Below are positions 4,280 through 63,463 of a DNA stretch of 64,000 bases, in pieces. The stretch is from positions 306,813,429 to 306,877,428 of the forward strand of contig OY821518.1 of assembly GCA_963682025.1 (NCBI GenBank), read 5' to 3'. The first letter of the stretch is position 1. The number at the start of each line of letters is the position of its first letter. This DNA is from Cordilura impudica (lineage: Eukaryota; Arthropoda; Insecta; Diptera; Scathophagidae). The notes beneath the pieces were generated by a model. It was not told where the DNA came from. It was given only the letters and a program-made list of their open reading frames with translations, and did no database searches. Both the position numbers and the translations under genes were made by a program.

Positions 4280-4287
4280 ATATACAT
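4280..4287. repeat. Target-site duplication, left (ATATACAT)
   Basis: The octamer is identical to 7121-7128 and flanks the TAGGGTG/CACCCTA ends. Confidence 0.9.
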
Positions 4288-7120
4288 TAGGGTGCCCCTT
4301 AATAAAAAAAAGTGTTCAAACTGTCGGTCTCACCCCCTAGAAATATGCGAATAGCAAAAAAACTGAGAAATACAAAGTTTTGGGCCAATCAAAAAACGTT
4401 TAGTCGTGGCGTGGCGCAAAGCGATTGAAAATTTCAAGTGTGTTTATATGACTTTTTTTCAGATTTTACGAAAATTTCGTTCTATAATTTAATTTTTCCG
4501 ACTAGCTGTTACATAATTCGGGATCAGTATTAAATTATCCTTTCAAAAGGCTATAAAACTTCAAAATCGTATGAAACCTCGCCAAGAAATAGCAAATGCC
4601 CCAGACCACTTTTGTGCCAAAAAAAACTTGGTCATGAAATTTGATGGCATTTTTTTCAACTTTGAGAAATTGATTAAAGCCATCATTCTTCTTTGGTCTC
4701 TATACTTATAAGTACTCAGATATGAAGTATTGTTTTATTACCACGTTGTTAACCTATTGCGCATTGAGACCGAAAATTGGAAATTTTTTGATAAAATTTT
4801 TAAAACTCCTTTTTCAAGTTTGAAAAAATTTTCTTAAACAAAATTTAAAAAAATTAATATATAACTTTAAGGTTTTATTAAATACCTGCCAGAATTTTTT
4901 TGACAAGGATTTTATTTTTGCGGATTTCGAGAAAACTTGGATTTTTGTGAAATATTCTGTAAATGTACTCTTTCTAAATACTCTGTATCAAAAATTCATC
5001 ACTTTTCTACTTTTAAATGTTATATTTTATCTTAATAGCCTAGGGTTTCGGAAAAAAATAATATGACTCCATTAACCCTTTTGGAATTGGGGTCACATAT
5101 GACCCCAAGCTAATAAAAGACAATTTATGCAAAAAATACAAATATTTGGTAAGTGCTGTCCAATTTTTAGATGCGGCGCTTAAAATGTAATAACCAAATG
5201 TATAGCAGTTTCGTTCCGAAAATTTGGGATAAATCCGAGAACATTAACCCATTATTTGCCAAAGCCAGATTTAGATTTTAAGATATTTTTAAATAAAAAT
5301 TACCGAAAACGAGTTTTTCTATTAAACCCGTTGATACCACTATTTAGAATTTAAGAAAAATAATTCGGTTAATTTTTATTTATTTAACCCTTCAGTGCTC
5401 CTGAGATCAAAATTATCCATTGTGATATATCTCTGGTGCAATTATCTGCTTATTGCTCGCGAATATAAATTAACACAACTTGGGTCATATGTCTCAAAAA
5501 TAGGACGTTTTTTGAAATTCACTTTGATTTAGTTTTGTAATTTATTCCATTAAGAGTAGTATTAATTTAATATTAACTTTTATATATATTATTATATTTG
5601 AAATTTACTTTTATTTAATAAACTATTTAAAACTGGGAAATAAAATGTTAGTAGTTTGAAAAGATGTAGGTGACATTGAAGAAATATAAAGCGACCGATT
5701 ATTAAAAATCAAAAATGTCAACCATTATAAGTAATGGCATCTTCACCGATTGACCTGAATTTTTTTTTTTTGCGTTTTTTATCAATATCCACCAAATTGG
5801 TGAGTGAGACCGCAAGATATGCAACTATTACTTTATTATATAAAGTAATTTTATAACAAAATTGATTAAAAGTTGTTTTAATATATATTCGCGAGCAATA
5901 AGCAGATAATTGCACCAGAGATATATCACAATGGATAATTTTGATCTCAAGAGCACTGAAGGGTTAAGTAAATAAAAATTAACCGAATTATTTTTCTTAA
6001 ATTATAAATAGTGGTATCAACGAGTTTAAAAGAAAAACTCGTTTTCGGTAATTTTTATTTAAAAATATCTTAAAATCCAAATCTGGCCTTGGCAAATAAT
6101 GGGTTAACGTTCTCGGATTTATCCCAAATTTGCGGAACGAAACTTCTACACATTTGGTTATTATATTTTAGGCGCCGCATCTAAAAATTGGACAGTACTT
6201 ACCAAATATTTGATTTTTTTGCATAAATTGTCTTTTATTAGCTTGGGGTCATATGTGACCCCAATTCCAAAAGGGTTAATGGAGTCATGTTATTTTTTTC
6301 CGAAACCCTAGGCTATTAAGATAAAATATAACATTTAAAAGTAAAAAAGTGATGAATTTTTGATACAAAGTATTTAGAAAGAGTACATTTACAGAATATT
6401 TCACAAAAATCCAAGTTTTCTCGAAATCCGCAAAAATAAAATCCTTGTCAAAAAAAATTCTGGCAGAGGGAATTACTTAAAAATTCACAAAGTTAATCAG
6501 CAACATGAAGTTAATAAAACCTTAAAGTAATATATTAATTTTTTTAAATTTTGTTTAAGAAAATTTTTTCAAACTTGAAAAAGGAGTTTTAAAAATTTTA
6601 TCAAAAAATTTCTAATTTTCGGTCTCAATGCGCAATAGGTTAACAACGTGGTAATAAAACAATACTTCATATCTGAGTACTTATAAGTATAGAGACCAAA
6701 AAAGAATGATGGCTTTAATCAATTTCTCAAAGTTGAAAAAAATGCCATCAAATTTCATGACCTAGTTTTTTTTGGCACAAAAGTGGTCTGGGGCATTTGC
6801 TATTTCTTGGCGAGGTTTCATACGATTTTGAAGTTTTATAGCCTTTTGAAAGGATAATTTAATACTGATCCGGAATTATGTAACACCTTGTCGGAGAAAT
6901 TAAATTATAGAACGAAATTTTCGTAAAATCTGAAAAAAAGTCATATTTTCCCCATATAAACACTTGAAATTTTCAATCGCTTTGCGCCACGACTAAACGT
7001 TTTTTGATTGGCCCAAAACTTTGTATTTCTCAGTTTTTTTGCTATTCGCATATTTCTAAGGGGTGAGACCGATAGTTTGAACACTTTTTTTTTTCCTCCA
7101 TTTAACGAAGGACCACCCTA
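4288..7120. mobile_element. 2.8-kb foldback transposon, hAT-like ends
   Basis: This is a nearly complete palindrome. The left arm (4288-5467) pairs with the right arm (5884-7120) over almost its whole length with scattered mismatches, around an unpaired core of about 415 bp. The outer ends are TAGGGTG and CACCCTA. The flanking octamer ATATACAT is identical at 4280-4287 and 7121-7128, so the element boundaries are exact. An 8-bp duplication with a TAGGG-type terminus is what hAT elements show. No transposase is encoded; the short frames inside are chance. Each arm contains the small palindrome GGGGTCACATATGACCCC (5089-5106, and a near copy at about 6245-6262). The right arm has an extra segment of about 44 bp at 6467-6510. 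Transcription through it would give a very long hairpin RNA. Confidence 0.93.
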
Positions 7121-7128
7121 ATATACAT
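7121..7128. repeat. Target-site duplication, right (ATATACAT)
   Basis: The octamer is identical to 4280-4287. Confidence 0.9.
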
Positions 7129-33320: not shown

Positions 33321-33857
33321 TAAAAAAAAATATGACGTTTTCCTATATTGTTTTCCTAAATTTTGTATTTTGTCATAGCTGTACATGTTGTTTTTGTGGT
33401 CGTTGTGTTAATAATATAAAAATTCATCAATATCAATATTTTTTGATGTAATATTTAAGTTAATTAATTAATAAAAGATACTATATAAAATCAATATCAA
33501 TATTCTGCGATTTTTATAACATCACAAAATGTTACAAATGTTGCCAATATCAAAATACTATAAATAATATTCATATATTATGTATATGTATATCCATAAT
33601 AAGCGCATATTAAAATAAATCGGTATTTTATTTTATTTATACAAAATTCTGAAATTTTTAGAGTTGCAAAAATAGTATGGTTTTAAGAGTTGTATTTTTA
33701 GTACATGTATAAACCCTGCATACTTGCATTCCAAAGTAGTAGGTAGGTAAACCATAAAACCCTGTAAAAAAATTGGTGTTTAGAAAAATACTATTTTTTG
33801 TCAGATGTTAAAAAAAGACGTTAATTACAATAAATTTTTAAAATTTGTTATTTAATG
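33321..33857. other. No gene seen
   Basis: AT-rich, with AATATCAATATT-type repeats. No supported feature. Confidence 0.5.
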
Positions 33858-45404: not shown

Positions 45405-47520
45405 ATATGGTTACAGGTTTTGCTCTATATCTTCTAGTTTTCGAGATATGGTCCATTTTATATTTTGGACACCCATTTTCGAACTAAAATTTTTTTGATA
45501 TGTAAAACTTTATGCCAGTTTTTAGTAAGAGAAAAGTTTAAACATCATAAAAGTGAGCAAGCAAACAAAAAAACGCAAGTGAGAAATTTTATCCCTTTTT
45601 AGGGAAGGGCACTAGGGACTTAGGGACGGCATATTTGAGAAGTACACATATGGTTACAGGGGTTGAGCGTACTTAAGGGGTGTTGAAATTTCGTCCGTTT
45701 TGCTCTATCTCTTCTAGTTTTCGCGATATGGTCCATTTTATGCCAGTTTTAAGAGAAAAGTTTAAGCATCATTATGAGAGTGAGCAGCAAACAAAAAAAC
45801 GCAAGTGAGAAATTTTATCCCTTTTTAGGGAAAGGCACTAGGGCCTTAGGGACGGAATATTTGAGAAGTACACATATGGTTACAGGAGTTGTGTGTACTT
45901 ACGGGGTGTTGAAAATTCGTCCGTTTTGCTCTATCTCTATCTCTTCTAGTTTTCGAGATATGGTCCATTTTATGCCAGTTTTAAGAGAAAAGTTTAAACA
46001 TCATTATGAGAGTGAGCAGCAAACAAAAAAAACGCAAGTGAGAAATTTTATCCCTTTTTAGGGAAAGGCCTTAGGGACGGAATATTTGAGAAGTACACAT
46101 ATGGTTACAGGGGTTGTGTGTACTTAAGGGGTGTTGAAAATTCGTCCGTTTTGCTCTATCTCTTCGAGATATGGTCCATTTTATGCCAGTTTTAAGAAAG
46201 TGAGCAGCAAATAAAAAAACGTAAGTGAGAAATTTTATCCCTTTTTAGGGAATGGCACTAGGGCCTTAGGGACGGCATATTTGAGAAGTACACATATGGT
46301 TACAGGGGTGTTAAAATTTCGTCCGTTTTGCTCTCTCTTCTAGTTTTCGAGATATGGTTCATTTTATGCCAGTTTTAAGAGAAAAGTTTAGGGACGGCAT
46401 ATTTGAGAAGTACACATATGGTTACAGCGTTTGTATGTACTTAAGGGGTGTTGAAATTTCGTCCATTTTGCTATATCTCTTCTAGTTTTCGAGATATGGT
46501 CCATTTTATATTTTGGACACCCATTTCCGAACTAAAATTTTTTTTGATATGTGAAACTTTATGCCAGTTTTTAGTAAGAGAAAAGTTTAAACATCATCAT
46601 AAAAGTGAGCAAGCAAACAAAAAAACGCAAGTGAGAAATTTTATCCCTTTTTAGGGAAGGGCACTAGGGACTTAGGGATGGCATATTTGAGAAGTACACA
46701 TATGGTTACAGGGGTTGTGCGCACTTAAGGGGTGTTGAAATTTCGTCCGTTTTGCTCTATCTCTTCTAATTTTCGAGATATGGTCCATTTTATGCCAGTT
46801 TTAAGAGAAAAGTTTAAGCATCATTATGAGAGTGAGCAGCAAATAAAAAAACGCAAGTGAGAAATTTTATCCCTTTTTAGGGAAGGGCACTAGGGCCTTA
46901 GGGACGGAATATTTGAGAAGTACACATATGCTTACAGGGGTTGTGTGTACTTAAGGGGTGTTGAAAATTCGTCCGTTTTGCTTTATCTCTATCTCTTCTA
47001 GTTTACGAGATATGGTCCATTTTATGCCAGTTTTAAGAGAGTGAGCAGCAAATAAAAAAACGTAAGTGAGAAATTTTATCCCTTTTTAGGGAATGGCACT
47101 AAACACTTAGGAACGGCATATTTTAGAAGTAAACATATGGTTACAGGGGTTGTGGAGTGTTGAAATTTCGTCCGTTTTTCTCTATCTCTTAGTTTTCGAG
47201 ATATGGTCCATTTTATATTTTGGACACCCATTTTCGAACTAAATTTTTTTTTGATATGTAAAACTTTATGCCAGTTTTTAGTAAGAGAAAAGTTTAAGCA
47301 TCATCATGAAAGTGAGCAGCAAACAAAAAAACGCAAGTAACATCGTGAGAAATATTATCCCTTTTTAGGCACTTAGGGACGGCATATTTGAGAAGTACAC
47401 ATATGGTTACAGGCTACTTAAGGGGTGTTGAAATTTCGTCCGTTTTGCTTTATCTCTTCTAGTTTTCGAGATATGGTCCATTTTATTATTGGGACACCCA
47501 TTTTCGAACTAAAATCCCTA
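45405..47520 (+). repeat. 2.1-kb degenerate satellite array with nested units
   Basis: The block TCTAGTTTTCGAGATATGGT occurs about ten times, near 45440, 45722, 45953, 46166, 46348, 46489, 46775, 47006, 47196 and 47467. Spacings are roughly 280, 231, 213, 182, 141, 286, 231, 190 and 271. A typical unit also has TTATGCCAGTTTTAAGAG, GTGAGCAGCAAACAAAAA, GAGAAATTTTATCCCTTTTT, then AGGGACGGCATATTTGAGAA, GTACACATATGGTTACAG and GGGGTGTTGAAATTTCGTCC. Longer units add a TTTTGGACACCCATTTTCGA segment. TCCCTTTTTAGGGA in most units can form a short hairpin. Frames through it are repeat artefacts. Confidence 0.93.
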
Positions 47521-61499: not shown

Positions 61500-63463
61500 T
61501 AATTATTTTCTAACTCTATTCGTCACTTCACATGCCGCAGGGAAGAAATAAGTGGATCGGAAGATGCTGCCAACATGTTGAAGAGGTCCTCATTTTGCCT
61601 TACCCTTGATGCTTTGAATGTGTTCTGCAATCTATATTTTTTATAAAATTTGTTAAGAGACTCCTGTGCTTCTTCAGAAAGCTCTCCAATTGGCAAAGAC
61701 TGGTACTCAATTATACTTAAATATTTTATGGACGGTCGGGGTCAACTTCTTCTGTGGATACATTTCTGCTAAAAGAGATGCAGTTTTCGATGCATATTCT
61801 CCATATTTTGTAGAATTGACATTTTCTTTGCAGTTTAAAACATTCAAGATCGTTCCCAATCTTTTCACGATTTGATTGTCAATTCCAGTGATTCTAGTTA
61901 CTGCCTCATCATTTTCAAAAAATCTCCTAGAAGTGTTTCCATCGTTTGAGTTACCGTATCCGTGCTTGGGACAGTCTACTTTTAGTCCAACTTGTTTAAA
62001 AAAAGCATCCTGTATTTGCTTCTTTCTGATATTTTCCTTATCCTTTATTGATGTATTTTCATCGAAGTTTTCCTCCTCTTGTGGTAGGGTATACGCCAGT
62101 TTTAGCAAGAACTCCATACACCTTATCCTTGTATTCGTAATTCTCCTCGTTTGTAGAATCGTTTAAATTACCAAAGTTCTTCTGACTCTTTTTGCAAATC
62201 GGGCATGACAATGTTGAGGTTGTTCCTGTCAGTTCGTTTACGACTTTTCCGTCAACCATGGTCAGGTGGAACTCGTAATTGCATTCAATATATTTTCCTT
62301 CTCCAATTTGCAGCTTTGTAGGCTTAATCTTGCTTATTTGTTCTTCAATGTCCTTCACCGTGGTCCTTATGAATTCTGCCGATTCCCTTGCAAACTGAAA
62401 CATTATTGGTCGGCAATAATGCACTGATGACGGACGTGGATTTTTCCAGTGTAGGGAAACATCAGATTTTAGCCGCAAAGGAACAACAGATGCCATAAAC
62501 ATATTTCCGTCCGATATTGTAGCGTCATCGGAAGATATCCTTTGCTTATAAACGCTTTGTCCGGATGATCCATCGCAGCCCCATTTGCTGATCAATGTCA
62601 GTTTCTCAGGAAGAATTTTCACCTCATTTTCAGGAAGACTCCCCAACAACCGTTTGGTGTATGGCCCATGAGATCCTGCAGATTGGCTTTCACAGAGACT
62701 TCCGTAAACTCCGTATGCAGTGGTCGTGAATTTATTTTGGCTTGCGTAATATGCTTGTATCCTGGTAAAACGTCAGCCCCGTGTCGTATCAAGGATGCCC
62801 GTAGTATCTCATATTTTTCATTGGAAAGTTGTAAGTCCATAAACAAGGCCAAGGCTTCTTCGGAACCATACTTTTTAATGTGTGCGTTTATGGGCGTGGG
62901 AATGCTTTCCTTAATCCTTTTTAGTCGCAGTGGGCTTGCATCAGCAACAGATTTTGTAATCTGCGACCTAACTCTTTCACTATCCTTTGTATATTTAATA
63001 GACAGCGCGTTCGATAAATGCTTCGTGGTCAAGTCATTGGTGGCATCGGCAAGTTTCCTCTTTCTTGTGAAAATTGAACACTCCTCAATACTTTTTTTGG
63101 CCTTCCTTTTGCTCCTCTGGTTGATGTGGTGGGTTTATCTACTGCCAATATATCCAGGATGGTATCTTCATTAAGCCAGTCCTCGTATTTGGAGTTGAAG
63201 TTCTGAATGGTTCGATTAGATTTCACCCATTTTGCCTTAATATTTGCATATATCAGATAAAAATTATTTTTTATAATTTCGCTTCTCTCAATATTTCCGT
63301 ATAAGCTATCAAGTTCTTCAAAAGCAGCTTCCGTGAAAAGCTTTGGTGTGGTTGACCTTCTAAACAGTTCAAATAATTTTAAATTGTTTAACGCCATGGT
63401 TTCAGTACTTGTTGCGCCAACTTTCAGTCGTAGACTAATCCAAGCATTATGCTTATTTTGCAA
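61500..63463 (-). pseudogene. Transib transposase relic (RAG1-related), frameshifted
   Basis: Transib transposases are DDE enzymes from whose lineage the RAG1 recombinase arose. Five minus-strand segments tile one protein of about 640 residues: 63463-63050 (N-terminal, ending in a basic patch), 63050-62650 (KLADATNDLTTKHLSNALSI, HIKKYGSEEALALFMDLQLS), 62650-62120, 62117-61715 and 61715-61528. The third holds KLTLISKWGCDGSSGQS (its Asp matches the first catalytic D), then CNYEFHLTMVDGKVV and CPICKK (the VDGK region is where the second D is expected). The fourth has GYGNSNDGNTSRRFF, like the NGNxAR motif of RAG1. The last has PIGELSEEAQESLNKFYKKY with the likely catalytic Glu (61661-61663) and ends SSDPLISSLRHVK. 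Four frameshifts separate them. Terminal repeats are not found; the right end may lie beyond the window. Confidence 0.9.

Follow-up and report, generated by a model that had tools for sequence, protein, structure and literature searches.

The near-palindrome of 2.8 kb lying in a 64,000-nucleotide stretch of the Cordilura impudica genome (contig OY821518.1, positions 306,813,429 to 306,877,428; hereafter the window) raises the question of what kind of element it is and how its two long arms behave towards each other. The element (4288-7120; 2,833 bp) is very probably a member of a high-copy family of non-coding hAT-superfamily foldbacks, mobilised in trans by a hAT clade of the same genome, in which the arms undergo conversion and crossovers invert the core. 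Its parts are as follows:

4280-4287, no strand: left target-site duplication (TSD), ATATACAT, repeated exactly at both flanks
4288-4303, + strand: left tip (L end, TAGGGTGCCCCTTAAT), not included in the long arm pairing; the L and R majorities diverge in these columns
4304-5481, + strand: left arm of the palindrome (self-alignment)
5482-5869, + strand: core of 388 bp, which in other copies occurs either way round with respect to the ends (genome comparison)
5870-7092, - strand: right arm, reverse complement of the left arm (self-alignment)
7093-7120, - strand: right tip (R end), family form TAGGGTGGCCCTTCGTTATATGGAGG (exact genomic matches); the window copy differs at 2 positions
7121-7128, no strand: right TSD, ATATACAT, repeated exactly at both flanks

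The two TSD copies directly abut the termini TAGGGTG...CACCCTA, as claimed in the initial annotation of the locus, which had reported an exact 8-bp duplication here. Self-alignment resolves the arms into an outer block (4304-4881 versus 6511-7092; 95.7% identity, 14 gap positions) and an inner block (4886-5481 versus 5870-6466; 96.3% identity), which together make up about 2.4 of the 2.8 kb and thus give the long inverted arms of the foldback class. The arms of about 1.2 kb described earlier are therefore present around a core, but their pairing does not reach the tips, and the core measures 388 bp instead of 415 bp. About 13 bases are common to both ends, with two mismatches in the window copy (left TAGGGTGCCCCTTAATAAAAAAAA, right TAGGGTGGTCCTTCGTTAAATGGAGG), and the long arm homology begins 16 bp inside the left and 28 bp inside the right end; since the tips differ beyond these 13 bases or so, L and R ends can be told apart. 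The longest open frame (among frames of at least 40 aa) is 65 aa, and a read-through of one strand in one frame had no Pfam family match. The arms hold no tandem subrepeats of the kind known from Tm1 and FB, only short direct repeats of 19-25 nt.

In the 1.49-Gb genome, first-look searches gave 2,220 candidates for the left arm and 1,435 for the core; the 40 scored in each case were mostly 94-95% and 96-100% identical, respectively. The exact R tip TAGGGTGGCCCTTCGTTATATGGAGG was matched 1,174 times (604 + 570; reversed control 0 + 0), which is a count of R tips and not of complete copies. For comparison, 35 other copies (L009-L028, L030-L036, L039-L046) were fetched, 20 via the left arm, 7 via the core and 8 via the R tip, the last from the first 100 matches listed (all on C1). 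Both tips were present in 16/20, 5/7 and 4/8 of these sets. Ten copies in which the L or the R tip was not recognisable (L010, L011, L014, L018, L031, L032, L043-L046) were left out of the TSD and orientation counts, although the sequence retrieved may stop short of the missing tip in L046 and possibly in others. Together with the window copy, 26 two-tipped copies form the basis of the TSD counts.

Among these 26, the TSD is an exact 8-bp repeat in 14 and an exact 9-bp repeat in five (L017, L025, L027, L030, L041), has 8 bp with one mismatch in five (L021, L022, L034, L035, L042) and is absent from two (L015, L028). Copies with other boundaries or lacking an 8-bp duplication had been named beforehand as grounds for abandoning the interpretation; on the whole, such copies were not what was encountered. 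All 19 exact TSDs have T in the second and A in the penultimate position, nT(4-5)An, a pattern shared by 11.7% of background octamers, and ATATACAT or its complement accounts for 7/19 (background 13/61,145 octamers, rank 457). When left flanks were paired with the right flanks of other copies as a control, 8 bases agreed in 22/506 pairs, because copies share a favourite target; this control used misplaced flanks for L030-L036, whose TSDs come from separate scoring. Nine pairs were compared for empty sites. Three are clear (L030 versus L011, L030 versus L024, and L023 versus the window), two for L015 and one for L020 bridge the junction apart from a gap of one base, and those of L009, L013 and L019 are ambiguous. 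The flank matches of L030 and L023 run across the junction and contain the target only once, and are thus empty sites. The site within the window is:

33553-33659, + strand: paralogous empty site for L023, whose joined flanks match across the junction at 88% with a single target copy (flank comparison)

Members of the hAT superfamily typically leave TSDs of the form nTnnnnAn and carry a short terminal inverted repeat (TIR) starting T/C-A-G/A-N-G. All 19 exact TSDs show the T and A of the former, and TAGGGTG at both ends of the element fits the latter. Furthermore, related elements in the same genome share the tips and target type of the foldback family and code for a transposase with a Hermes-like fold, so that these ends are common to elements encoding a hAT transposase; the hAT-like termini and foldback architecture proposed initially gain strength accordingly. 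The first such transposase came up by chance next to copy L028, and the hAT-fold clade now comprises L028/L047 (C4) and P0001-P0122, with 725 homologues at E<=0.001, the named ones mostly from insects. None of 45 scanned members matched a Pfam hAT or DDE model at E 0.1, and the PF05699 model would probably miss this clade. Judging from the shared tips and target type, a transposase of this clade, in which open reading frames are present, would move the foldback in trans. A family outside the structure-search results may also come into question. A 364-aa frame at L028:2402-3493 (- strand) with a DUF4817 helix-turn-helix (E 3.9e-14) lies inside a 4,731-bp hAT element, as a nested element or a second gene.

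Within the family, the arms of the majority sequence (15 copies) differ at only 21/1,254 columns, 15 of which fall in the first 28 (the tips), and the source was therefore a nearly perfect palindrome. The mean divergence of arms from this majority is 2.8%. Mean distances are 4.4% between arms of the same copy, 4.5% between left arms, 5.2% between right arms and 5.2% between left and right arms of different copies, so that strong concerted evolution, with a copy's own arms clearly more alike, was rejected as a description of mean distance, where it is weak, though it is visible in shared private variants. Mutations present in exactly two arms are shared by the arms of one copy in 36/101 cases, against 3.5 expected (30/86 with strict columns; 30/110 with 17 copies).

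The core is complete in 17 of the 26 two-tipped copies, partial in four, mixed in one (L022) and absent from four (L017, L020, L028, L041). With the L and R tips as reference, eight complete cores are in + and nine in - orientation, and each partial core has a single orientation (L012 and L016 +; L021 and L040 -). Variants in the first 28 arm columns track the tips, and common variants near the core track the core side, with phi of 0.35-0.42 at columns 948-949, 0.41-0.45 at 1148-1149, 0.46-0.61 at 1154-1230, 0.70-0.79 at 1300 and 0.94 at 1314 (an indel of one base). Linkage thus rises with arm position (Spearman 0.88 for 14 sites in 15 copies; 0.84 for 17 sites in 17 copies); in the 17-copy set, 4/1,000 orientation shuffles reached 0.84 and 0/1,000 the mean of the four innermost sites. 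Both the pairing of two-arm mutations and this linkage pattern are the traces expected from conversion between arms and from crossing over. Arms that are nearly identical in the family majority would exchange sequence within copies by gene conversion, and crossovers between them would invert the core, giving copies in two isomers. The core has been inverted at least once, and probably repeatedly.

Alternative origins for the element have to be weighed against hAT membership. Palindromes are generally hard to assemble, and an assembly artefact or local inverted duplication would be the alternative to a mobile element; as many other copies have TSDs of their own, chance or an assembly accident is ruled out, and with 1,174 exact R tips, many distinct TSDs and empty sites this explanation is hardly credible. 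A Mutator-superfamily foldback of the FB/Phantom/Tetris/Tm1 type, to which most described foldbacks correspond, would account for the 9-bp duplications in 5/19 exact TSDs, and published reports place Tetris (8-10 bp) and Tm1 (8-10 bp, mostly 9) in Mutator (PMC4079207, PMC3169594). It is nevertheless improbable, for 14/19 exact TSDs are of 8 bp and all 19 follow the target pattern, where Tm1 has mostly 9-bp TSDs with no target consensus; the arms lack the internal tandem repeats of Tm1, and a Hermes-fold transposase is encoded by the relatives that agree in first bases and target type (no search for Mutator transposases was made). P-type elements also produce 7-8-bp duplications, and these, along with the long arms, would suit a P-superfamily foldback like Galileo. 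Such an assignment is very improbable, given tips and a target type that fit the hAT clade (P transposases were not searched for) and arms free of the internal repetition described for Galileo TIRs (PMC2775673). Several observations count against the favoured explanation and must be borne in mind: the 9-bp length in 5/19 exact TSDs is unusual for hAT; the flanks of L023 and L026 are alike (90-92%), and these may be one insertion event or two hits on one repeat type; the Foldseek superposition on Hermes is poor (TM-score 0.41-0.45, root-mean-square deviation 16); and no element combining these arms with a transposase came to light, with no directed search behind this, the relatives sharing tips only.

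A stronger reading, in which each copy is a self-homogenising inversion switch with ongoing arm conversion, repeated germ-line core flips, two isomers near equilibrium and arms offering inverted homology for chromosome inversions, is given slightly less than an even chance. Its repeated-inversion part competes with a rather unlikely scenario in which both orientations were inherited from a few old source elements, conversion alone being frequent and inversion not continuing. Core orientation is indeed partly a subfamily trait, since a well-supported older subfamily of four copies is entirely +, several core variants are restricted to + copies, and strongly supported branches of the core tree force only one change. 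The tree as a whole needs five orientation changes (bootstrap 5-95% range 4-5, 200 trees), against 6.0 for shuffled labels, with 164/500 shuffles needing as few as observed. To these reservations are added an uneven linkage gradient (five sites at columns 977-1129 have phi of 0-0.15, below the 0.35 of site 949), zero linkage of some rarer variants near the core (columns 1232, 1242) and a linkage p-value that overstates, because neighbouring sites are not independent. What speaks against the old sources is that none of the 200 bootstrap trees requires a single change, that the younger core group holds both orientations (9 -, 4 +), and that core linkage fades along the arm, unevenly, and not in one clean step.

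As in Hermes, hobo and Ac, the family combines a short TIR starting TAGGG and mostly 8-bp nTnnnnAn TSDs with a Hermes-fold transposase in genomic relatives; unlike them, it consists almost entirely of inverted arms, is non-coding, has 9 bp in a quarter of its exact TSDs, and has relatives whose transposase matches no Pfam hAT model (0/45). Most described foldback elements have been placed in Mutator, and Galileo in P (PMC4079207, PMC2775673). Drosophila FB/Tetris and nematode Tm1 likewise have long inverted arms around a middle, with most copies lacking a transposase (PMC4079207, PMC3169594, in part), but differ in their tips, whereas the window family has mostly 8-bp TSDs with a target consensus, no arm subrepeats and hAT kin. 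Galileo of Drosophila has long foldback-like TIRs and documented between-copy recombination for inversions, but a P transposase, versus hAT tips and target here; the accessible parts of its reports make no mention of arm-to-arm conversion within one copy (PMC2775673, PMC4168063). Among the open-access papers listed for foldback elements, which included Galileo, Tetris, Tm1 and others, no hAT foldback appeared; subscription journals and repeat databases lay outside this scope, and the result does not establish novelty.

A high-copy hAT foldback would place the foldback architecture in a third superfamily besides Mutator and P. Many palindromes offer a single locus, whereas many copies with distinct L and R tips and a core marking the centre make arm conversion and inversion readable from one genome; if true, a hAT foldback whose arms show a recombination gradient that can be measured would serve as a natural assay for palindrome recombination. 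The probable mobilising clade counts hundreds of homologues, yet no Pfam hAT model matched.

Apart from mobility, the arms bear on the RNA of the element. The hairpin of more than 1 kb anticipated initially agrees with a predicted fold of 1,153 arm-to-arm pairs (minimum free energy -1,880 kcal/mol, longest uninterrupted helix 171 bp). An RNA folding into such a long hairpin is possible, as a putative source of endogenous small interfering RNA (siRNA). siRNAs from hairpin RNAs are the subject of published work in flies, as are transposon siRNAs in mosquitoes.

Minor observations on the family are as follows. L010:4301-7148 has an L tip on each side and no TSD, and L038:15-1262 an R-type tip on each side, being older and 82% identical; these copies look as if tips also undergo conversion. 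L038 was rejected as a progenitor, for it appears to be derived by deletion from an older wave, as was L045 of the R-tip sample, an older relative 77-83% identical. The - cores of L021 and L040 are interrupted at the same place (position ~70-73) by an insertion of about 0.15-0.2 kb. Within the window element, the TTAACC motif recurs at 4749, 5072, 5244 and 5384, mirrored on the right arm, and suggested nested piggyBac-like miniature inverted-repeat transposable elements; the scored core matches (40 of 1,435 candidates) are 96-100% identical. The opposite arm (6243-6264) holds a copy, 91% identical, of the 22-bp palindrome TTGGGGTCACATATGACCCCAA (5087-5108).

Elsewhere in the window, a 154-aa open frame (256-720, + strand) had no Pfam match and presumably represents the end of a non-LTR (long terminal repeat) retrotransposon reverse transcriptase. 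A 196-aa open frame (62059-62649, - strand) resembles the DNA transposase in PDB entry 6pqn (E 2.3e-25), with weaker similarity to RAG1, and we take it to be a likely Transib fragment. A 226-bp unit forms a tandem array in two blocks at 45526-47040.
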